From Caryophanales bacterium (lineage in GTDB: Bacteria; Bacillota; Bacilli; JARBTR01): 64,000 nucleotides of DNA. The DNA lies in the NCBI GenBank assembly GCA_029240105.1, contig JARBTR010000005.1, positions 62,001 to 126,000 on the forward strand, written 5' to 3'. How positions within the stretch are numbered: the stretch's first letter is position 1; each line of letters starts with the position of its first letter. Positions 45,878 to 64,000 of the stretch are shown piece after piece. The position numbers and the translations under genes are program-made. The notes below the pieces were generated by a model. The model ran no database searches, had not been told where the DNA came from, and worked only from the letters and a program-made list of their open reading frames with translations.

Positions 45878-46582
45878 ATGCCTATAGAGTTCAATTCAAA
45901 TATAACCATACCTAATATGTCTGTACTTCTTAAGATGGATCACCGTAAGGTTCAATATAAAAAAGGCGATTTATTATTCAGGGAAGGAGAGCCAGGACAT
46001 CAATCCTTTCTAGTACTTTCTGGTAGAGTGCGTATAAGTAAAATTCATTCTGATGGTTCAGAATTCACTTTACGGATTTGTCAGGAAGATGAACTATGCG
46101 GAGAACTAATTTTATTTAATCCAGAGAGCCGTTATTTCTATAATGCAGAAGCCATTACTGACTGCGAAATTGCAATTTTAGAAAAAACAACTATGGAAAA
46201 TGAGATTGTTGCTAATCCGACTGTCGGTCTAGAATTCCTCATTTGGATGAATAATCATATTCGAAAGACGATGACACGATTCTGGGGACTAACTTCTTGC
46301 GGAAAGAAAGGAACTCTGTATGCAACATTAATTCGTCTGGCTAACAGCTTCGGTATAAAAAATGAAGATGGAAGTATTTTAATTGATTTACATGTTACAA
46401 ATCAGGACCTTGCAAGTTTTTGTGCCTCTACACGTGAAACTGTCAATATCTTCTTAAATGAATTAAAAAAAGAGGGAATTGTAACTATTGAAAAGGGAAA
46501 AATTACGATTCGACATATAGAACATTTACGTAAAATTATGGGATGCGACAACTGTGTCGCAGTCTATTGTACGATTCATTAA
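45878..46582 (+). CDS. fnr: Fnr-type oxygen-sensing regulator (Crp/Fnr family)
   Basis: 234 residues: a cyclic-nucleotide-binding-type beta barrel (about 15-130), a long dimer helix and a C-terminal HTH (NQDLASFCASTRETVNIFLNELKKEGIV). At the extreme C-terminus C223, C226 and C231 (GCDNCVAVYC) have the same CxxCx4C spacing as the 4Fe-4S cluster cysteines of B. subtilis Fnr, rather than the N-terminal cluster of E. coli FNR. It directly precedes nrfH-nrfA in the same direction and is the likely activator under oxygen limitation. Strong ribosome site AAGGAGAAA. Confidence 0.82.
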   Translation: MPIEFNSNITIPNMSVLLKMDHRKVQYKKGDLLFREGEPGHQSFLVLSGRVRISKIHSDGSEFTLRICQEDELCGELILFNPESRYFYNAEAITDCEIAILEKTTMENEIVANPTVGLEFLIWMNNHIRKTMTRFWGLTSCGKKGTLYATLIRLANSFGIKNEDGSILIDLHVTNQDLASFCASTRETVNIFLNELKKEGIVTIEKGKITIRHIEHLRKIMGCDNCVAVYCTIH

Positions 46583-46589
46583 TTCTTTT

Positions 46590-46614
46590 TCGCCCTGCTT
46601 ATGCAGGGTTTTTT
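46590..46614 (+). terminator. Terminator after the Fnr-like gene
   Basis: CCCTGC and GCAGGG with a TTAT loop, followed by nine T's. Confidence 0.85.
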
Positions 46615-46657
46615 TTTATTAAATTCCATTCCATAATCCATTTTTCCCTCATCTTTT

Positions 46658-46726
46658 ATGTGTCTAAAGCACACATCTTCTTCACAATTCCGTCATAATT
46701 AGAATTCAGATTGTTAGAATTCTAAC
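46658..46726 (+). promoter_or_regulatory. Palindromic operators upstream of nrfH
   Basis: ATGTGT-N7-ACACAT (46658-46676) resembles an Fnr box (TGTGA-N6-TCACA) but has one base less between the arms. Downstream, GTTAGAATTCTAAC (46713-46726) is a perfect 14-bp palindrome, and a partial copy TTAGAATTC lies 15 bases before it (46699-46707). The pair probably binds regulators of nitrite respiration; the second motif is not one I can name. Confidence 0.5.
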
Positions 46727-46789
46727 ATTTTTTTAATCGATATTTTTATAAATTTTATTAGAGAAAAAGATTTGGAGGGAGGCCGAACT

Positions 46790-47314
46790 TTGAAAAAGCT
46801 AAGAGAAATTTTTAGTAATAGAAAAACATTCTGGTTCCTTGGAACCTTTATTGCTGGAGTTGTTTTCTGGGTAGGATTCACATCTGCTGTTCACTATATG
46901 GATACACCTGAATTCTGCGGGACTTGTCATATCATGGATGATGTTGTTAATTCACATGCCGCTTCAGCACACGCAGATCTTGAGTGCGGTAGTTGCCATG
47001 TACCTGCAGGAAATATTGCAACCAAGATGATTTATAAAGCGAAGGTTGGTACGGGTCACGTTTATTACAATCTATTCGCTCAAGAAGATATTCCAAATTT
47101 ACTTAAAGCAAAAGAAGAGACAAAAGAAGTAGTTGAAGCTAACTGTATTAGCTGCCATAAGGCAATGTTAGGAAATGTTGAACATACAGCAAAAGAAGAT
47201 TGTGGAAGTTGCCATCGTGGTTTACCGCACGGACAACAATCATTCAAAACAAAAGAATGGAACAAAGAGCCTAAGCCAGGTGAACTTTTGAAGAATAAGG
47301 AGGGAGTATTTTAA
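46790..47314 (+). CDS. nrfH: Cytochrome c nitrite reductase small subunit (quinol dehydrogenase)
   Basis: 174 residues of the NapC/NirT family. One N-terminal membrane anchor (about 14-36) is followed by four CxxCH haem sites (CGTCH, CGSCH, CISCH, CGSCH). It takes electrons from menaquinol and passes them to NrfA. Start: the TTG at 46790 lies 7 bases after GGAGGGAGG; an in-frame TTG at 46772 would be upstream of this site. The stop overlaps the nrfA ATG by one base, so the two are coupled. Confidence 0.93.
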   Translation: MKKLREIFSNRKTFWFLGTFIAGVVFWVGFTSAVHYMDTPEFCGTCHIMDDVVNSHAASAHADLECGSCHVPAGNIATKMIYKAKVGTGHVYYNLFAQEDIPNLLKAKEETKEVVEANCISCHKAMLGNVEHTAKEDCGSCHRGLPHGQQSFKTKEWNKEPKPGELLKNKEGVF

Positions 47315-48759
47315 TGAGAAATTTAAAACTACTTTTAATTGCATTAGTCTTAATCATCATTACCTTTTCATTATCAGCATGCAATGATAAAGAACAAGAT
47401 GCTAAAAATTTAACAACAGGATTGAAAGCTACTGAAATTAATAATGAAGCCTTCAAAAAACTGTTCCCATTACAATATAAAAGTTATATGAGCAACATGG
47501 AAATGGAAGATACAACATATGGTGGTTCTGAACCAAGAAGTAAATTCTCTGATGATAAAGAGCCATTACTGCCTATCTTATTTAATGGATACCCATTTGC
47601 GACAGATTATAATGAAGATCGCGGACACACATACGCTATGGTAGATATCGAGCGTACACTTCGCGTTACCGACAAAACAGCTGGTGGTTGTCTATCTTGT
47701 AAGTCAACTGTAGTTCCTCAACTTATTGCAGATATGGGCGAACATTATTGGAAAGCTGGAAGTTTCAAATCAGAAGTATTACCAAAAGCGAAAGCAGCGG
47801 GGCACAGTGCGGTCGGATGCTCTGACTGTCACAACCCTGTAAACATGGATTTGCGCGTTACTCGACCAATGTTTATTGATGCAATGAAAGAAAAAGGTAT
47901 AGATGTTGCTCATGCAACAAAGAATGAAATGCGTACGTATGTCTGTGCACAATGTCATTCTGAGTATTTCTTTAAAGCGGAAACAAACGTCGTTACATTC
48001 CCTTGGAAAGACGGTTTATCGGCTGAAGCAATGTATGGCTACTACGATAAAGAAAGAGCGAACCCAACAAGTTTCCAAAAAGACTATATCTCTAACATTT
48101 CAGGTGCTCCAATCCTGAAAGCACAACACCCAGATTATGAAAACTACACACAAGGTACTCATGCAAAAGCCGGTGTTTCTTGTGCAGATTGTCATATGCA
48201 ATATGAGAGAATGGATAACGGCAAGAAAATCTCTTCACACCAATGGACATCTCCACTTAAATCGATGGACACTTCTTGTGGAACATGTCATAGCAGTCGC
48301 GATATGAAAGATTTAGAAAAACAAGTTCAAGGAATTCAAAAAACGTATAAAGAAGCGTTAGATCATGCTGAAGAAATTTCAATGAACGCACACTACTATG
48401 TAAACAAAATGATTACATCTGGTGTGGACACAGCGAAGGTTAAAGAAGCACAAGAACAAATTCGTCTTGGTCAATGGTTATGGGATTACAATGCCGCTGA
48501 AAACTCAACTGGTTTCCACAACCCACAAGGTGCAATGGATACTCTTATGAAATCAGCTAACGCATCAAATAAAGCAATCCAAATTGCAACTGAAGAACTT
48601 GTTAAAAAAGGCGTAAATATAAGCGAGTTAAAAGCTGAAATTGAAAAAGCAAAAAATGCTGTTATTACTGAAAAAGATACAACAAAGAAAAAGAATTCGG
48701 CTGTGAATGCATACTTCCCTGGTCAACAACCAGTAGTTCCTGCAACGCCAGCAAAATAA
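47314..48759 (+). CDS. nrfA: Cytochrome c nitrite reductase, catalytic subunit (lipoprotein form)
   Basis: 481 residues. A signal peptide ends in the lipobox LSAC (C23). Five haem sites are present: the catalytic CLSCK (126-130) and four CxxCH (CSDCH, CAQCH, CADCH, CGTCH). The block YNAAENSTGFHNPQGAM is conserved at the haem interface. NrfA reduces nitrite to ammonium with six electrons at the outer face of the membrane. It is coupled to nrfH by an overlapping stop-start and ends at a terminator. Confidence 0.95.
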   Translation: MRNLKLLLIALVLIIITFSLSACNDKEQDAKNLTTGLKATEINNEAFKKLFPLQYKSYMSNMEMEDTTYGGSEPRSKFSDDKEPLLPILFNGYPFATDYNEDRGHTYAMVDIERTLRVTDKTAGGCLSCKSTVVPQLIADMGEHYWKAGSFKSEVLPKAKAAGHSAVGCSDCHNPVNMDLRVTRPMFIDAMKEKGIDVAHATKNEMRTYVCAQCHSEYFFKAETNVVTFPWKDGLSAEAMYGYYDKERANPTSFQKDYISNISGAPILKAQHPDYENYTQGTHAKAGVSCADCHMQYERMDNGKKISSHQWTSPLKSMDTSCGTCHSSRDMKDLEKQVQGIQKTYKEALDHAEEISMNAHYYVNKMITSGVDTAKVKEAQEQIRLGQWLWDYNAAENSTGFHNPQGAMDTLMKSANASNKAIQIATEELVKKGVNISELKAEIEKAKNAVITEKDTTKKKNSAVNAYFPGQQPVVPATPAK

Positions 48760-48769
48760 TTTATAATCT

Positions 48770-48803
48770 TAAAGAGGTTGGACGAAAGTCCTACCTCTTT
48801 TTC
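48770..48803 (+). terminator. Terminator after nrfA
   Basis: AAAGAGGT-GGAC with GTCC-ACCTCTTT around a GAAA tetraloop, followed by TTCT. It separates the nrfHA operon from the second nrfA. Confidence 0.85.
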
Positions 48804-49025
48804 TACTTCTTCTTATCGGTTTACTTCTCTTGGGCTGCTGCCCCAAAGCTAAATTATCTATTGCCCTAAAAACATCATCCTATGGGATTCCAATTTAATT
48901 TTATTTCAAACAATAAATAACCCAGGCACAAAAATGTTAACTTTTTAGTCACTGTTAGAACACATTAAAACCATATCAGGGGTGTTACAATTTGAATGCA
49001 TAATTTTAATAAGAAAGGCATGAAT

Positions 49026-50450
49026 ATGAAGAAAAAACATTTATTTATTATTGCAGGTGTTATAGGTATTATTCTAGCGGTTGGGGTTTCTGTTTATTTT
49101 CTAATGAACCAAAAAGAGGAGATTGCCGGACCAAAGTTAACTGGGCTGAGTCAAGATGAAATTCGTATAGAACCATTCATGAAATTATTCCCAAATCAAT
49201 ATGAAGGATATTTAAGTAGTGAAGCAATGGCGAATACAGAGTTTTCAGGTTCTGAACCAAAATCAAAGTTTGCGGCTGATATGGAACCTTTATTACCTAT
49301 CTTGTTTAGCGGTAGTGCTTTTTCTACTCAGTACCTAGAGGACCGCGGGCATGTTTATGCTCTTAAAGATTTAGATGAATCGCTACGTGTTACAGACAAA
49401 TCACCTGGTGCATGTTTACAATGTAAATCAACAGCTGTACCACCACTTGTAAGCAAGTATGGAGAAAAGTTTTGGACAGCAAGTTTAAGACAGGAAATTT
49501 TTCCGGCTGGAGAAGAAATGCACCAAGGAGCTGTCGGATGTTCCACTTGCCATAAACCAAACACAATGGAATTAACAGTAACTCGACCAGGCTTTATCGA
49601 AAAAATGACTGAAATCGGTATTGATCTCGAGCACGCGTCTCAGAAGGATATGAAGAACTACGTTTGTGCACAATGTCATGTTGAATACTATTTCCGCGGT
49701 GATAACGGAGAAGTTACACATCCTTGGAACTCTGGTTTCAAAGCAGTAGAAGGATTTATATACTATTCATCCCGCGCTCGTCAAAATGGATTTGAAAAGG
49801 ACTACGTTTCTAACGTCTCTGGAGCGCCAATGTTAAAAGCACAGCATCCTGATTATGAAATGTATAGTAAAAGCGCACATGCGAAAAGCGGTGTAACGTG
49901 TGCTGATTGTCATATGCCTAAGATGACAAAGAACGGAAAAAAGATTTCCTCACACCAAATGACTTCACCGTTGCATGACATGCAGGGTGCATGTGGTAAA
50001 TGTCATAAAGATTTGGACAAAAAGAAAGCTCAAGTATCATCCATTCAAGGGGAATTTAAAACAGAGCTTCTTGATGTGGAGGCACAATTAGCAAAAGCAC
50101 ATTACTATGTAAATCGTATGATAACGACAGGGTGTACACCTGAAGAAATTAAGGAAGCTCAAACACAGATTCGATTCGGCCAATGGTTTATGGACTTCAA
50201 CGCGGCTGAAAATTCAACTGGTTTCCATAACCCTGAAGGTGCAAAAGACAACTTCCGTATCGCCAAGAATGCAATTAAAGAATGTATGTCTATCGCTGAG
50301 CCTGCTTTAATAGCAAAAGATGTCGATTTAAAGCTACTTGATTCACAAATTGAGCAAACTATTGCAAATGTATTAAATGAACCTGATCATACAAAGAAGA
50401 AGTTATTTGTAAATAATGAGTGGTTTCCTTCTCAAGCTCCAGCGAAGTAA
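49026..50450 (+). CDS. Second NrfA-type nitrite reductase (membrane-anchored form)
   Basis: 474 residues from the ATG at 49026, which has AAGAAAGG upstream (49020 and 48996 are alternatives). It contains the same five haem sites (CLQCK, CSTCH, CAQCH, CADCH, CGKCH) and the block FNAAENSTGFHNPEGA, so it is a full paralogue of the preceding gene. Unlike that one it has no lipobox cysteine; an N-terminal helix (about 5-26) presumably anchors it. It has no nrfH of its own and an independent leader of about 220 bases, so it may share NrfH or accept electrons differently. Confidence 0.9.
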   Translation: MKKKHLFIIAGVIGIILAVGVSVYFLMNQKEEIAGPKLTGLSQDEIRIEPFMKLFPNQYEGYLSSEAMANTEFSGSEPKSKFAADMEPLLPILFSGSAFSTQYLEDRGHVYALKDLDESLRVTDKSPGACLQCKSTAVPPLVSKYGEKFWTASLRQEIFPAGEEMHQGAVGCSTCHKPNTMELTVTRPGFIEKMTEIGIDLEHASQKDMKNYVCAQCHVEYYFRGDNGEVTHPWNSGFKAVEGFIYYSSRARQNGFEKDYVSNVSGAPMLKAQHPDYEMYSKSAHAKSGVTCADCHMPKMTKNGKKISSHQMTSPLHDMQGACGKCHKDLDKKKAQVSSIQGEFKTELLDVEAQLAKAHYYVNRMITTGCTPEEIKEAQTQIRFGQWFMDFNAAENSTGFHNPEGAKDNFRIAKNAIKECMSIAEPALIAKDVDLKLLDSQIEQTIANVLNEPDHTKKKLFVNNEWFPSQAPAK

Positions 50451-55559: not shown

Positions 55560-57251
55560 ATGAAATTAAAAATAAGAACAAAAATTATTTTAGGTTTTTC
55601 AATTGTTCTATTAATTACTGGATTGATTTCTGTTATTTCATATAAAAACGTTAAAGATTTGGTGGAGAAATCTACGGTTACCGTAAACACTGATATTCCA
55701 ATGCTTCAAAAGTTAAGCATGGTAAAATATAACCTTGCTTTTCAAACAGCTAATGCAAGAGGGTACTTATTCTACAAAGATGAAAGTATGTATAGGGAAT
55801 ATACACACCTTGTTTCTGAAAATAATAAATTAATCAAGGAATTAATAGCGACTTCTAAAACAAAAGCTGATAGAGATGTAATGATTGAGTTAAAAAAGCT
55901 AAACTTGGAAGCTAATAATGTTATAAGTAATGATATATTTCCCTTATACTATACGGGAAATATGGATGAAGTAATTTCAACTTTGAAAACGAAAGAAGTA
56001 CCTATTTCTGCAAAAGCAGCTAAGTTACTTGATGAATTTAGTAAGAAAAAAAACGATGCATTGAAGCAAACCTCAAGCACTTTAATTAATACTAGTAGTA
56101 AAGCAAAAAGTGCAGTCATTATTTTTAGTGTTGTAGGATTACTAGCTGGGATTTTGATTAGTTATACAATCTCCAGAATGATATCGAGACCAGTTGTTTC
56201 ATTAGCTGAAATTGCTGACCAGGTTTCTAATGGAGATTTAACTCTTGTTGTAAAAAGCAAATCAAAAGATGAAATTGGTGATCTAAGCTATTCTTTTAAT
56301 ACAATGATACAAAATTTAAGAAAAGTAATAAGCGATGTAGCTGAAGCATCTATTCAAGTGGCAACTTCAAGCGAGGAACTTTCTGCATCTTCTGAAGAAA
56401 CTACTGCAGCAGCTAAACAAGTGACTGCAACTATAAGTCAATTAGCTGAAGGAGCAACCCGACAAGCTGAAGCTGTTGAAGTAACAAGCGTTGTGGTTAA
56501 TCAAATGTCTGCAAGTATATTACAAGTAGCTGAAAATACTGAAAAAGTGTCTCAAGCTTCAATTAGAGTGTCTCATGCAGCAAATCAAGGCTCTAATGAA
56601 GCTAAGAATGCTATTATGAAAATTAACCAAATAAAAAATACTGCATCAGATACAGCTGAAGTAGTTAAAACCTTGGGTGATGAATCAAAAAAGATTGGAC
56701 ATATCATTGATGTTATTAAAGGAATTGCAGATCAAACTAATTTATTAGCTTTAAATGCTGCCATAGAAGCAGCAAGGGCTGGTGACCAGGGTCGTGGTTT
56801 TGCCGTTGTAGCAGATGAAGTTCGTATGTTAGCTGAACAATCTGCATCTTCAGCTCAGCAAATTGCGCTATTAATATCAAAGATTCAAGATGAAACAACT
56901 AAAGCAGTACAGGTGATAGAAGTCGAAACAAAAGTAGTAGATGAAGGCGTAATAGCCGTAAATAAAGCTGGCGAGTCCTTCCAAGCTATTGTTCAAGAAA
57001 TAGATCAAGTTGTTGATCAAATACATCAAGTAAGTTTGGCAACTAAACAAATGTCTGAAGGAAGTAAAGAAGTCGTACGTTCAATAAAGGAAATTGCCGA
57101 AGTTGCAGAACAAACTGCGAATTCTGGACAAGAAGTAGCAATAGCCGCTGAAGAGCAATCCTTGTCAATTCAAGAAGTGACTAATTCTGCAGGACAATTA
57201 GCAAATTTAGCTGATCAACTTAGAAAAACTGTTTCTCAATTTAAATCTTAG
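55560..57251 (+). CDS. Methyl-accepting chemotaxis protein with four-helix-bundle sensor
   Basis: 563 residues. TM1 (about 8-28) and TM2 (about 182-204) flank a helical periplasmic-side domain of the 4HB/TarH type; HAMP follows (about 205-257) and then a long coiled-coil signalling domain with the conserved tip [34 protein letters not shown]. It senses an unknown ligand outside the cell and signals to CheA/CheW, which are not in the window. It diverges from no gene and has its own leader; a shared terminator separates it from the next receptor. Confidence 0.93.
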
Positions 57252-57270
57252 TCGTAACATTATTTACAAG

Positions 57271-57320
57271 AAAAGCTGGTAATCCCCTGTCGTATAGACT
57301 GAGGAAAAACCAGCTTTTTT
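57271..57320. terminator. Terminator between two convergent chemoreceptor genes
   Basis: AAAAGCTGGT and ACCAGCTTTT form a 10-bp stem with a loop of about 28 bases and T's on both strands. Confidence 0.7.
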
Positions 57321-57386
57321 AAAACGCCCTGTTATTGTGTAAATAATCTAAAAAATTCCTTCTAGCAATTTATTTCATTTTTTTTA

Positions 57387-59405
57387 TTATTTCAATTTAA
57401 ATTTTAGAATTTCTTGTTCTAGTTGTTCTGATAGTTCTTTTAATCCATTCGATTGTTGAATGTAGATTTGCATTGTAGACGAAATTTCATCTGCTGCTGC
57501 AGATACTTCTTCAGTCGCAGCTGCTGTTTGTTGAGATACAGCTGTAATATTTTCCATCTCTTCACTGACTTTATCTTTATTGGACTGACTATCCTTCACA
57601 GACTCTTCTACTTTTTTAACCTCTTTAGCTAATTCACTGACAGTTGATAAGATATCATTAAAAATTGCTTCCGTTACTTTCACAGCTTCATCTTGCTGCT
57701 CAACCGCTTCGCTTGTTTTTTTCATTGCATCTACTGCTGTATTTACAACATCCTTAATGTTGTCTATGATGCGTTTGATTTGCTCTGCTGATGTTTTGGA
57801 TTGTTCTGCTAATATTTTAACCTCATTAGCTACCACAGCAAAACCACGTCCATGTTCCCCTGCTCTAGCAGCTTCAATAGAGGCATTTAGAGACAATAGG
57901 TTCGTTTGTGCCGTTATTTGAGTAATCACTTGAATAATTGCGTTGATTTCCTCCATACGATCTGACACATTCTTTACAATTACAGAGACTTCATTTGTGG
58001 AAGACTTTGTCTCAGCTGATTTTTCTGTCAATAAATGGACAATTTCTAAACCGTTGTTACTTAATGTTAAAGACTGTTGTGAAACAGTATTCATTTCTTG
58101 TGTAATTGTAGAGATACCATCTAATTGATAAGATAATTCTTTCATTTGATCAGAACTAGTTAGAACATTTATTGCTTGTGAATTAGCTCCTTTTGCGATT
58201 TCACTAATACTAAGAGCTACCTCATTAAGTGATGTATTGGCTTCTTGCGTCATCGAATCTAAGTTAGAAGATGTTTCCCTTACCGCTTTTGACGTTTGAT
58301 CTACTTTTTGTAGAGCATCTGAAAGTTGTTCCATCATACCATTAAAACTCTGTTCCAACTCTTTAAACTCATCATTCGTTTTAACCGAAACTCTTGTAGT
58401 AAAATCACCTTTTGAAGTCATTTTTAAAGCTTCGTTAAATGAAATAATATTTTTTGACATGCGAGTTCCGAATAGGAATGCAACTAAAGCAGAAATAACT
58501 GTAAAAATTGCTAATAAAATTAATCTGATAGATTGTAATTCTTCCGAACCTTTTGTAATTTCTGCATAATCTAAAGTCGATATGAATTTCCAACCTGTAA
58601 GCTCATACGTAGAGTAGGCTGAAAATGTATCTTCCCCATTTAAAATGTACTTCTTATAGCCATTTGAATTTTTTTGCATAGAATTCCAAATAGCAAGTTT
58701 TGTTATAGACTTACCAACCTTACTTTTATCAGGATGTGCAATGTAGCCTCCATCCTGGTCAACAATTGTCATATAACCGTTTTCACCTATTTTCATTCGA
58801 CTGATAGAGTCTGAAAATCGGCCAAGATCTATGTCAATAGCAGTAACTCCCACTAATTTTCGACCTTGATCATATACAGCACGTGATAAAGTTACAACCA
58901 TTTGTTTTGTAACTGCATCCGGATATGGTTTTGAAATGAACGTTTCACCATTTTTTGATACAGCTCCTTTATACCAATCACGACTAGTAGGATCGTATCC
59001 ATCAGGTAATTCCTGTTTTGGTGCTATGATCATATCCATATTAGTAGATCCAAAGTATACAGACGAATAATCTTTATTCGTTTGCAACGTTCCTTCTAAA
59101 ACGTCAAAACCATACAGTTGATGTGATGGGTCACCATAAAAGTCTATAAAATTAGCATTGCTAGCAATAAGTTCTACTTGATTTTCTATCCCTTTCAAAT
59201 AATAATCAAATGATTGTTGGGCTTGTTTGGTCGTTTGAAGTGTAGATTGAGATACTTGTTTTGACATTGTGCTTTGTATCTTATCGTTTTCAATGATTGA
59301 TAGTAAAATTAAAGGCACTAACCCTACAAGCACCATACTCATTATTAACTTTACTCTTACACTTTTCCATTTGATTCGACTCTTCTGTTTTACTACATTT
59401 TCCAT
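57387..59405 (-). CDS. Methyl-accepting chemotaxis protein with dCache sensor
   Basis: 672 residues. TM1 (about 18-37) and TM2 (about 291-312) enclose a double Cache domain; [42 protein letters not shown] is the typical ligand-pocket region. HAMP follows, then the signalling domain with the tip [33 protein letters not shown]. dCache receptors in Bacillus (McpB/McpC type) bind amino acids or similar small molecules. A sigma-D-like promoter lies upstream (59593-59621). Confidence 0.93.
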
Positions 59406-59592
59406 TATTAACCTCCTAAATTATGTCTACCTTACTTTTAGAAACTGTAATTTTTTTAAATAACTCAAAATAACTAAGATCTTTTCATTGGATGACACTT
59501 TTTGTACTGAATATTCTGCAAACTTTGTGCAAAAATTCCTTTACATGTTTATGCTATGTGCCACCTCCGACTAATTATATGACAAAATACAA

Positions 59593-59621
59593 ATATTCGA
59601 CATACTTTGACAAAGATTTTA
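59593..59621 (-). promoter_or_regulatory. Sigma-D-like promoter of the dCache receptor gene
   Basis: On the minus strand TAAA (59621-59618), 16 bases, then GTCGAATAT (59601-59593). The sigma-D consensus is TAAA-N15-GCCGATAT. The same arrangement is found before the receptor at 59891-62356. Confidence 0.55.
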
Positions 59622-59678
59622 CATAAAATATTTCATTTTGGATATTGGGAATTCATACCTATTAACTAAAATTAATAA

Positions 59679-59877
59679 GAGGCTGGGACATAACACTCTA
59701 AAATCGTTTTCTGTTTGCTTTTAGCGGGCGAAGTTTCGAGCCTCTGCGCCTGAGAATTGCATTCTCAGGTTTCAGGGTCTCTCACTCCACTCTTCAACTG
59801 GACTGGTACCAATGGGTCCAGTTGAATTCAATCCCGCAGGAGTCAAACAGATGATTTTGAGTATTATCCCAACCTCC
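59679..59877. repeat. GGCTGGGACA-type inverted-repeat element, long form
   Basis: About 199 bp. The left end GAGGCTGGGACATAACACTC and the right end (complement GGAGGTTGGGATAATACTC) are imperfect terminal inverted repeats continuing as AAAATC and CTGTTTG on both sides. Inside are TGAGAATTGCATTCTCA, a CAACTGGAC/GTCCAGTTG hairpin and CCCGCAGGAGTC, a block that resembles repeats widespread in Bacillaceae. The hairpin at 245-307 is a short relative. Non-coding. Confidence 0.65.
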
Positions 59878-59890
59878 ACTGTAGTTAAAA

Positions 59891-62356
59891 TTATTCTTCG
59901 ATTATTATATCTTCATATCTCATTAAACCTAATGGGCTTTGCTTAGTTCCTAAAATTCCCTCTCTATGAACATGTCCCATCTGTGGATGATACAAGAAAA
60001 TCCAAGGAATATCATTTACAATTTTCCTTTGAACTTCTTTATATATATCCATTCTTTTTAAAGGGTTTATAACTCCTTTAGCCTCATTCATTAAGTGCGT
60101 TACCTCAAAATTATCATATCTAGTAAAATTAGTTATAGTTGAATGGTTAAACAGAGGTTGAAGGAAGTTATCTGGGTCACCAGTATCTGCTATCCACCTT
60201 GAAATAAAAAGATCACACTTTTTTATTGTTTCAGGTTTCAAATATCTATCAAGTGGAACCTTTTCAACATCACACTCAACGCCCACAGCCTTCAAGTCTT
60301 CCACTACATACTTTGTAATTTTGTTAAATACAGTGTCTTCACTGCCTTCTCTAGAAATAACTTTTAGTTTTATAGGAGATGTCCATTTTTTCCTGATTAT
60401 ATCCTTAGCAAGCGATGGGTTATAAACAAAGCCTTGAAGGTTATCGTTAGGAATCATGTCAGGTGGAACGGGACCTTTAGACTCAACAGCCATTCCCCCT
60501 AATATTTCATCAATTATTTTCTTTTTATTAACGGCGTGGTTAAGTGCTTTTCTAATATCCAAATCCTTTATCGCTAGTGAATTTGATTCAAGATTAAAGC
60601 CTACATAGTAGCTCCCTAATATACTTCTCATCTTAATACTTGAAGAAACGTCTCTTAGTTTCTCTCTATTTTCCTTACCATCTACAAGAACAAAGTCGTA
60701 TGTACCATTTATAAACTTATCTGCAGCATGATTTTCATTAAACTTGATGTTTACTTTATCAATATAAGGGGTTCCTGCGTAATAATCTTTAAAAGCCTTT
60801 AATACGCACCCTTCATTATTCCTGCTTTCAATAATATAGGCACCACATCCTATAACTGCTCCATTTTCCCCTTCTCCCTTGCTAATAATTGAACAAGAGA
60901 ACTGGGCAAGGTTAAGTAAAAAGCCACTATATGGGCTGGAAAGCTTTAGGGCTATTCTGTATCTATCTAAAATTTTGATTCCGCTAACTTCCCGAGTTCT
61001 TCCAGAAACAAAATCCTGATAACCTTCAAGTTGTTCAAGATACCAATTGTTTGGTGATCCCACGTCCGGATCTAGTAGTCTTTTGTACGTATACTTTACA
61101 TCTTCAGCGGTTATCTCAGCACCATTATGAAATTTTGCACCTTTTCTAAGATTAAAAACCCAAGTTAGATTATCCTCTTCTACATACCAGCTTTTTGCAA
61201 TACCAGGAAGTATTTCACCAGAAGCGCCTATAGTGAGAATTCCTGAATGAACGTTCACAAGTATTTGTCCGCTTTCTTGATCATAAGCCATAGCCGGATC
61301 ATAATTTAGTGGCGCAGTAACAAAAGCGGTGTTTAGCGAACATTCTGATCTTTCTCCTACACTCAACCTTGCAAGAAGCTTCCCAGATATTAAATCAAGA
61401 TTTCTAGAAACCTCGGATAATTTTTGAAGTGCAGCTTTTGTATATTGGGTATCCATTGAAGCAATTTCTATCATTGCAATAACATTTCTTGAAACTGCAT
61501 TCATCTCTTCCGTTGAAGCTAGAATTTCTTCAAGGCTCTGGGTCTGTTTTGATACAGCTAAATTAATTTCTTGCGTAATACTTGCAGAAGTAGTGACGGC
61601 ATTAATAATATTGTTGAAAACTTCCAACGTATTGTTTGCTATATCAGAACCTTCATTAACCTTTTCTCCACTTTTGTTCATGGCTTCAATGGTATCTGAA
61701 ATACTCCTGTTTATTTCTTCAATTGTCTTAGAAATATCTTCTGCAGACTTAGCACTTCTTTCTGACAAATTCTTTACTTCTTGAGCTACTACTGCAAAAC
61801 CTCTGCCTGCTTCGCCTGCTCGCGCTGCCTCTATTGATGCATTGAGAGATAAAAGATTGGTATGCCCAGCTATATCTTTAATTGCCTTAAGCATATCATC
61901 TATATGCACAGCCTTTAAACTAAGCCTCATAACTACTTCTTTTGCATAATCTACAGAGGATTGAATTTCACCCATTGCTTCAATAGACTTATGTACAGCC
62001 TTACTTCCCTCTTGTGCTGCTTCCATTGTATGATCAGCTATCTTTTTCGAATTTTCAGTACTAGCAAAGACCTCTTCTGTCAAAACAGAATAGTTTGCGA
62101 TTTCACTCGCTACTTTACTAATAGATTCCATTTGTACTTCTACTGATTGAGCGACCTTTTGAGTAATACCTATTAGATTCTCTACTGCAAAACCAGTTTC
62201 TTCAATTTTTCCTGATATCCTATCTACAGTAACCTTTTGATTGTATTTCAAAAGCGCAATTTCATTTTCAGTATTGATAGTTTCGAAATCTTCTGAAAAT
62301 TTAACATCTACAAAATTGGCATCTTTAAGTTTTTTATTTAATAACCATTTCAACAT
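59891..62356 (-). CDS. Soluble chemoreceptor fused to a family-5 (oligopeptide-type) solute-binding domain
   Basis: 821 residues without signal peptide or membrane helix. Residues about 45-330 are a methyl-accepting signalling domain; the tip is [34 protein letters not shown] (161-194). Residues about 342-821 form a complete SBP_bac_5 domain: [33 protein letters not shown]-like [63 protein letters not shown], and [22 protein letters not shown]. Such domains normally work outside the cell in Opp/Dpp importers; here the domain should be cytoplasmic and replace the usual sensor, at the C-terminus. It could sense imported peptides. It has a sigma-D-like promoter. The fusion is certain from the uninterrupted frame; the function is inferred. 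Confidence 0.9.
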
Positions 62357-62782
62357 GTACTTTCACCTTCAATTGAATTTATTTTTTTAATTTTTCATTC
62401 CTATATCGACGTCTTTTGACAAATTTTACATGAAAAAATTCATTTTGACTATATATTTACAACACTTGATATAGGTACAATCATTGTTTTAATCATGATT
62501 TTTTAAAATATGAGATTTACTTTATAAACTAGTATCTAAAAATTACGTTTCAGGATTTACTAGTTTTCATTTGTTTTGATAACTTTATATTATTTATTTC
62601 TGCTTCCACAGATATAACGGATATTACTTAAAACCCTAATTACTTATGTAGGTTAGTTACTTATTGAAATTTTCCGTATCGACAAATCTAATTTTTCAAT
62701 TAAATAAAATTATTTTCATGTTATAATAATTATAATTAAGTATTTTTACCATTAGATATTAGTATTCGTCCAGGAGGTTTAT
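62357..62782. other. Divergent intergenic region between two chemoreceptor genes
   Basis: It contains the sigma-D-like promoter of the minus-strand gene (62403-62428) and, for HemAT on the plus strand, a TTATAATAATTATAAT stretch near 62718-62736 that may include a -10 box. Nothing else recognised; very AT-rich. Confidence 0.4.
62403..62428 (-). promoter_or_regulatory. Sigma-D-like promoter of the receptor/binding-domain fusion gene
   Basis: On the minus strand TAAA (62428-62425), 14 bases, then GTCGATAT (62410-62403): one mismatch to the -10 consensus GCCGATAT. It ends about 46 bases before the start codon. The core and flanks (TAAAATTTGTCAAAAG) resemble the promoter at 59593-59621. Confidence 0.6.
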
Positions 62783-64000
62783 ATGTTAAAAGTTAAAAAG
62801 AGTACTATAAAGGTATTTGATGACCTATCTACCATTGAAAAGGAAGTCATATTAGATACATCACAACTTGAAGATCTTACAAATCAATTGTTGATAATTG
62901 GATTAGGAAATAGAGATTTAGCAATAGCTAAAAAGATTCAACCATTTATACAAGAACACTTGGATACAATTACCACTAATTATTACAACGAAATTCAAAA
63001 AGAAGCATCACTTTTAAAAATTATAAAAGACAACAGTACTGTGGATCGATTGAAAAAAACATTAACCAGACATTTATTTGAACTTTTTGATGGCAAAATT
63101 GATCATAATTTTATTAATCAGAGAATCACAATAGCCCATGTTCATGTAAAAATTGGTCTAAAAACAAAATGGTATATGGCTGCCTTTCAGAGTTTGTTTA
63201 GTACATTCGTTGAGATATTAAACAAATACATATTGGATAAAGATGAACTTCTAGAAGCTATACACGTCGTATCTAAACTTTTGAATCTTGAACAACAGTT
63301 GGTTCTAGAGGCGTATGAAGAAGAAGTTGAACGTATTAAAAAAGAAGAACAAGCAAAAAAGCAAATTCGTGAACGAGTAACGCAAAACGTACAAGACTTA
63401 TCTGCTATTGCGGAGGAAACAAGCGTTTCTGTACTATCCCTATCTAAAAAAACAGGGTTATTAGTAGAATTAGCGACATCCGGTGTACAATCTGCTGAAA
63501 AAGTAGAACACCGTTCTAAGGAAGGGAAACTTGGTATAGATGAACAACTAGCTCAAATGAACACAATTTCTGAAAATTCCATCCACATCACAAAAGAAGT
63601 TGAAGATCTACAAAGAATTTCTTCAGAAATTAATGAAGTGGTCATTCTCGTTAAAGAAATAGCTGATCAGTTAAATTTACTAGCTTTGAACGCCTCTATT
63701 GAATCTGCTAGAGCAGGAGTTGAAGGAAGAGGATTTTCAGTAGTGGCAAACGAGGTAAAGAAACTGGCAGAAAAGACCAAATCATCTGTTTCAAATGTAA
63801 GTGATTTAATTAAAAAGACCAATGTACAAATTGAAAATGTTAATTCGATTTCTATTGGAGTTAATGAATTGGTGCAAACAGGATTCCAAAACATGAATAC
63901 AATTGCCCGATTCTTTGATAGTATTTTAAAAGAAGTAGAACATAGTAAATTAGAAAATAAAGAAATGGAATCAGAGCTTCTATCTTTTTCACATCATTTT
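62783..64000 (+). CDS. hemAT: HemAT-type globin-coupled aerotaxis receptor (3' end outside the window)
   Basis: 406 codons visible, still open at the window edge. The ATG at 62783 has CAGGAGG upstream. Residues about 25-185 are a sensor globin: tyrosines at 67-68 lie near the distal position, H121 in HVHVKIGL is the expected proximal haem ligand, followed by [14 protein letters not shown] coiled-coil signalling domain follows (tip [34 protein letters not shown]). There is no membrane segment. In B. subtilis HemAT binds oxygen and directs aerotaxis. The visible part is complete through the signalling tip. Confidence 0.93.

Follow-up and report, generated by a model that had tools for sequence, protein, structure and literature searches.

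Organization of the locus

The gene under study is encoded on the minus strand of the window, the whole stretch of 64,000 nucleotides that was analyzed, and reads from an ATG start through a frame without interruption (Table 1). Pfam profiles assign residues 106-288 of the protein to MCPsignal (E 4e-42; 144 bits against a cut-off of 34.6) and residues 382-740 to SBP_bac_5, the latter covering positions 2-365 of a profile of 368 (E 8e-73; 246 bits), and no third domain was found by Pfam along the 821 residues. The preliminary description had proposed one unbroken frame of 821 codons joining a chemoreceptor signalling domain to a complete family-5 solute-binding domain, and both points were borne out, the completeness of the domain also by the structural model and by Foldseek. 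The start codon is preceded by a ribosome-binding-like element. The candidate sigma-D/sigma-28 promoter farther upstream, TAAA-N14-GTCGATAT, is not significant alone, as 23 of 200 shuffles score equally well, and most homologues are without the motif; it was therefore given no weight.

Four receptor genes are adjacent at this locus, encoding a 4HB-HAMP receptor, a dCache-HAMP receptor, the fusion and a protein of the protoglobin/HemAT type (from 62783 onward). Shortly past the end of the window the contig encodes a sigma-28-type factor, followed by FlhF and FlhA, about 4 kb from the fusion gene; the four-receptor cluster and this flagellar run span positions 55560-64000 of the window and 8819-14425 of L053. 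CheA, two CheW and the flagellins are encoded further along the contig, and a CheW-domain protein of 306 amino acids, which is probable CheV, on another contig. A broken CheA was considered and rejected, the apparent stop being the gene's own stop and CheA being intact in the stretch read. Since one CheA gene was found in the genome, flagellar taxis would be the obvious output of the fusion receptor, and the link to the flagellar motor suggested earlier is supported, as far as gene content can indicate, by the adjoining flagellar genes and by CheA, CheW and flagellins on the contig.

Across the fusion-carrying lineages no conserved neighbour family was found, the adjoining genes examined being unrelated housekeeping or transport genes, and no conserved transporter or peptidase that might hint at the ligand was found across the homologue loci. 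As no neighbour family recurs, an operon-based guess at the ligand was dropped. Receptors are usually without conserved neighbours. The tetranucleotide profiles and GC content of the window lie inside the range of the other contigs of the source assembly (2.48 Mb, 15 contigs), in which no 16S rRNA gene was found. Elsewhere in the window, positions 45878-50450 form a nitrite-reductase locus in which the catalytic subunit is duplicated: two cytochrome c552 genes of the NrfA type stand side by side, together with genes for a NapC/NirT-type cytochrome and a Crp-type regulator.

Table 1. Features of the fusion gene and its upstream region (window coordinates)
Feature	Position	Strand	Basis or remark
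MCP-SBP_bac_5 fusion gene, 821 aa	59891..62356	(-)	ORF, Pfam architecture, homologues
Ribosome-binding-like GAAGGTG	62364..62370	(-)	Sequence; 7 bases upstream of the fusion ATG
Candidate sigma-D/sigma-28 motility promoter, TAAA-N14-GTCGATAT	62404..62428	(-)	72 bases upstream of the ATG
Signalling hairpin of the chemoreceptor (residues 30-329; a pair of long antiparallel helices)	61370..62269	(-)	AlphaFold2 and MCP alignment
CheA/CheW-binding hairpin tip, residues 166-194	61775..61861	(-)	Conservation and identity with neighbouring MCP tips
Short linker, residues 330-339, receptor C-helix to binding domain	61340..61369	(-)	Model; junction common to all homologues
SBP_bac_5 binding domain, residues 340-821, complete fold	59894..61339	(-)	Pfam, model, Foldseek
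Codon of C504 in GCG motif	60845..60847	(-)	GTG in the free family members compared
Codon of R669, possible equivalent of DppA Arg355 (R383)	60350..60352	(-)	Register uncertain
Codon of D724, equivalent of DppA Asp408	60185..60187	(-)	phmmer/hmmsearch alignments to DppA

A full-length receptor hairpin in the cytoplasm

In the AlphaFold2 model (mean pLDDT 77.7 over the whole model) a disordered start of low confidence, residues 1-27, leads into the two helices of the signalling hairpin, residues 30-183 and 185-329. The hairpin tip is the most conserved stretch of the fusion family, and alignment with the three neighbouring MCPs showed that the MCP tip is conserved in it. From the position after HAMP to the C-termini the hairpin aligns nearly without gaps with the adjoining 4HB and dCache transmembrane receptors, which demonstrates its full length; the C-helix ends about 22 heptads past the tip, and the length class is the one named 44H. 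HAMP and membrane helix are absent from it, so that it is a normal full-length receptor hairpin minus the HAMP and membrane parts. One consensus-like methylation site was noticed, at residue 274 (SLEEILAS), as a sequence match only.

The highest hydropathy of the fusion over 19 residues (Kyte-Doolittle) is 1.36 and is located within the SBP fold, and the maxima of the full-length homologues tested range from 0.98 to 1.48. No signal peptide or membrane helix was found in the fusion or in any homologue tested, and the model contains no N-terminal signal helix with a cleavage region, the receptor helix being continuous from residue 30 to residue 183. The earlier statement that the protein lacks both a signal peptide and a membrane helix is thus confirmed, and exported homologues, named beforehand as evidence that would speak against an internal sensor, were not encountered among those tested. 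Since the MCP tip must reach the cytosolic CheA and CheW and no membrane crossing lies between the tip and the SBP domain, the domain is cytosolic, as had been supposed. The SBP domains of the fusions carry about seven cysteines, against one to three in the three free SBP_bac_5 precursors of the genome, a count that includes the lipobox cysteine; the high cysteine content agrees with a cytosolic location. The sensor stands at the C-terminus, as previously described, but the order, then regarded as the reverse of the usual one, poses no mechanistic problem: both ends of the hairpin lie together at one pole, and a C-terminal sensor hence sits where an N-terminal sensor usually would.

Fold and pocket of the binding domain

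Residues 340-821 were modelled as a two-lobed domain, with a confidence mostly of 80-95. Foldseek related it to GbpA (3m8u, E 2e-37, TM(target) 0.84) and further to OppA/MppA, which bind peptide and murein peptide, and to DppA. The top ranks of a profile search with the SBP domain were GbpA, a Mesorhizobium peptide binder and DppA, and NikA/NikZ were also among the relatives found. The nearest free relatives in the carrier genomes are DppA/GsiB-like, and in C. carboxidivorans the gene of the nearest one is followed by a DppB/Opp-type permease gene.

In DppA, D436 and R383 (D408 and R355 of the mature protein) bind the dipeptide by its amino and its carboxyl end, respectively, and charge reversal of both Asp408 and Arg355 abolishes dipeptide binding (PMC12136057). 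The equivalent aspartate of the fusion, D724, is invariant (51 of 51 fusions), and so is the pocket-type residue W721. This Asp is common among SBP_bac_5 proteins, and hence it is no proof of peptide binding. Arginine occurs at position 669 in 37 of the 51 fusions and was lost mainly in divergent forms. phmmer aligns R669 exactly with the Arg of GbpA, but the DppA profile alignment is two residues off, and because of this shift R669 was rejected as a firm equivalent of Arg355; given the conflict of register, only D724 is to be relied on. At the position of C504, cysteine is found in 46 of 51 fusions, against threonine in all three free SBPs compared. The cysteine might reflect life in the cytosol, or it might be a redox-sensitive site.

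Distribution and selection

At least 50 further sequences share the junction between the two halves. When one genome per bacterial species was scanned, 21 other full-length fusions were obtained from clostridial genomes; the genera represented include Clostridium, Caloramator, Fervidicella, Alkalithermobacter and Marinisporobacter, and Tissierellia carry the fusion as well. The frames of two of these homologues are broken (L016 and L021). With these left out, 20 intact sequences, the window and 19 others, align end to end, the identity to the window being 47-59%. A search for proteins with MCPsignal followed by SBP_bac_5 and no membrane helix had been proposed as a check in the preliminary description; in the genome searches the same order and junction came up in dozens of genomes, and both chance and a chimeric assembly at about residue 335 are excluded by the same junction in independent genomes.

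Whole-genome searches of the class of C. carboxidivorans detected the fusion in 9 of 391 genomes, and those of its family in 38 of 208. All 38 carriers have CheW-domain proteins, which are present in 176 of the 208 genomes of the family, a co-occurrence with a chance of 0.0009 when kinship is ignored. In the window's own class the fusion was found in this genome only, among 400 sampled. The source genome is the sole representative of its order in the genome set compared. The sampled genomes of the window's class and those of the C. carboxidivorans class have none in common, which suggests that the source organism is probably outside the Clostridium class and that it may have gained the gene by horizontal transfer. 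In the tree, the window sequence forms its own branch among the clostridial sequences, with a placement that is not strong.

In five close pairs dN/dS was 0.07-0.19 in the SBP part and 0.03-0.11 in the MCP part, so that purifying selection acts on each of them and both are kept. With such selection and a fold that is intact in the model, the binding domain shows none of the degeneration that would have argued against a sensor. Several genomes have two or three copies of the fusion, some from a divergent subfamily with 30-39% identity in the SBP domain (about 30-35% for L047 4995-7445, L048 4992-7457 and matches of the family search at 580-685 bits). The members of this subfamily are without Arg at 669, GAG replaces GCG in some, and their ligand is, judged from these sequences, probably different. 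Two genes of the divergent subfamily are nearly adjacent in genome G970. Some copies seem degraded or truncated, with internal stops in G956, about 470 amino acids matched in G936 and the C-terminal end missing in L050.

Proposed mechanism and alternative readings

The reading favoured here, with some reserve, is that of a cytoplasmic flagellar-taxis receptor that would report a small internal ligand, most likely one resembling a di- or tripeptide. From the features described, entry into the array, the class of ligand, the direction of the signal and the physiological role are inferred as follows. The receptor would dimerise through its full-length signalling hairpin, and the conserved tip would allow it to enter the flagellar CheA-CheW array of the cell. 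Two binding domains would then sit on the free end of the hairpin, in the place that HAMP and the membrane segments occupy in membrane receptors. Closure of the clamp on a small cytosolic ligand would be transmitted by the short linker as a shift of the C-helix, changing the activity of CheA and, through it, the swimming bias. The likeliest ligand would carry both a carboxylate and a free amino terminus; a di- or tripeptide, arising from import or from the turnover of peptides, would fit, and the receptor would thereby report the internal supply of peptides or nutrients. Points against this reading are the commonness of the Asp among SBP_bac_5 proteins, the incomplete conservation and uncertain register of R669, the lack of a conserved transporter or peptidase nearby, and the restriction of the fusion to one of the 400 genomes sampled in the window's class.

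A peptide-type ligand is preferred on account of the invariant amine-binding Asp and the intact fold. The same cytoplasmic receptor might instead read a non-peptide metabolite, as is supposed for SgrR, candidates being an amino acid, a sugar phosphate, a glutathione-like thiol or a metal chelate. Proteins of the SBP_bac_5 family also bind nickel chelates, glutathione and opines, with GbpA and NikA/NikZ among the relatives of the domain; SgrR and DsvR are thought to read sugar-like molecules, and SgrR reportedly binds glutamate (PMC13060122); moreover, the loss of R669 in divergent fusions would allow ligands to vary by subfamily. However, the best profile matches are binders of dipeptide, glutathione and peptide and the Asp is preserved in every fusion, so that a non-peptide ligand appears rather unlikely, although it deserves serious consideration.

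That the SBP domain has lost small-ligand binding and serves as a spacer, or as a docking module for a partner in the array, would be in keeping with the absence of conserved neighbours. It is improbable in view of the strong purifying selection across the whole fold, the invariance of W721 and D724 and the completeness of the fold in the model. An assembly chimera, or export of the SBP part, would be brought to mind by the fact that members of this family normally act outside the cell, but it has a negligible probability: dozens of independent genomes share the junction, every homologue tested is devoid of signal peptide and membrane helix, and in composition the contig resembles the other contigs of the assembly.

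The ligands known for chemoreceptors are mostly detected extracellularly, and few cytoplasmic receptors have an established cue. The fusions form a conserved family of cytoplasmic receptors, and because the ligand-binding fold of their sensor is well understood, the ligand should be findable by ordinary binding screens. If a cytoplasmic receptor for internal peptides is indeed encoded here, peptide import and turnover would be tied directly to flagellar taxis, and proteolytic Clostridia would navigate by the peptides available within their own cells, a form of taxis that a direct sensor would link to metabolism. The wider proposal, that the fusions constitute an undescribed class of chemoreceptors by which motile Clostridia and scattered Firmicutes steer according to internal peptide concentration, is advanced tentatively, as one that may or may not hold.

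Comparison with known systems

Cytoplasmic chemoreceptors with a C-terminal sensor are known from Helicobacter pylori TlpD, which carries a CZB domain (PMC12871147, PMC8262984). TlpD and the fusion have in common the lack of a membrane helix and an order in which the hairpin comes first and the sensor is at its far end. They differ in that the sensor of TlpD is a small zinc-binding helical bundle and that of the fusion a 480-residue SBP_bac_5 clamp, and in that the TlpD hairpin is about half that of Tsr (PMC12871147, PMC8262984) whereas that of the fusion is of full length; Pfam gave no match to CZB in the fusion.

Binding proteins and chemoreceptors also act together in the systems, reviewed elsewhere, in which chemoreceptors are stimulated by separate periplasmic binding proteins (PMC9602780). 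There, a separate external protein docks on a transmembrane receptor, whereas in the fusion the binding protein is a covalent part of a cytoplasmic receptor. With the DppA, GbpA and GsiB type of SBP, its closest free relatives by profile, the fusion shares the fold (TM about 0.8) and the amine-binding Asp. Proteins of this type serve ABC importers as exported proteins or lipoproteins, in contrast to the cytosolic, MCP-linked domain of the fusion, which has GCG instead of GTG and no permease neighbours; the marks of an importer SBP (export signal or lipobox, cognate permease operon) were not found at the fusion.

According to a survey, Pfam profiles of the SBP type pick up sensor domains of cytosolic signalling proteins as well (PMC9602780), and the transcription factors SgrR and DsvR combine an HTH with a C-terminal SBP_bac_5 domain that acts as a cytosolic sensor (PMC13060122). 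The cytosolic family-5 sensor, regarded as unusual at the outset, is therefore confirmed as cytosolic but is not unprecedented. In both cases a signalling protein ends in an SBP_bac_5 domain used for sensing in the cytosol, the output being a DNA-binding domain in SgrR and DsvR and a chemoreceptor in the fusion, in which Pfam found no HTH and MCPsignal stands in its place. The match of the fusion to the SgrR NCBIfam profile is weak (36 bits against a cut-off of 476). In the literature searched, no account was found of an MCP to which a cytosolic SBP_bac_5 domain is fused, although a mention in the domain table of a review is possible. Cytoplasmic receptors with a C-terminal sensor and cytosolic SBP_bac_5 sensors are thus each known, and it is their combination that was not found described. 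If the reading favoured here is correct, importer binding proteins could be recruited as internal sensors for movement, as they have been for transcription in SgrR.
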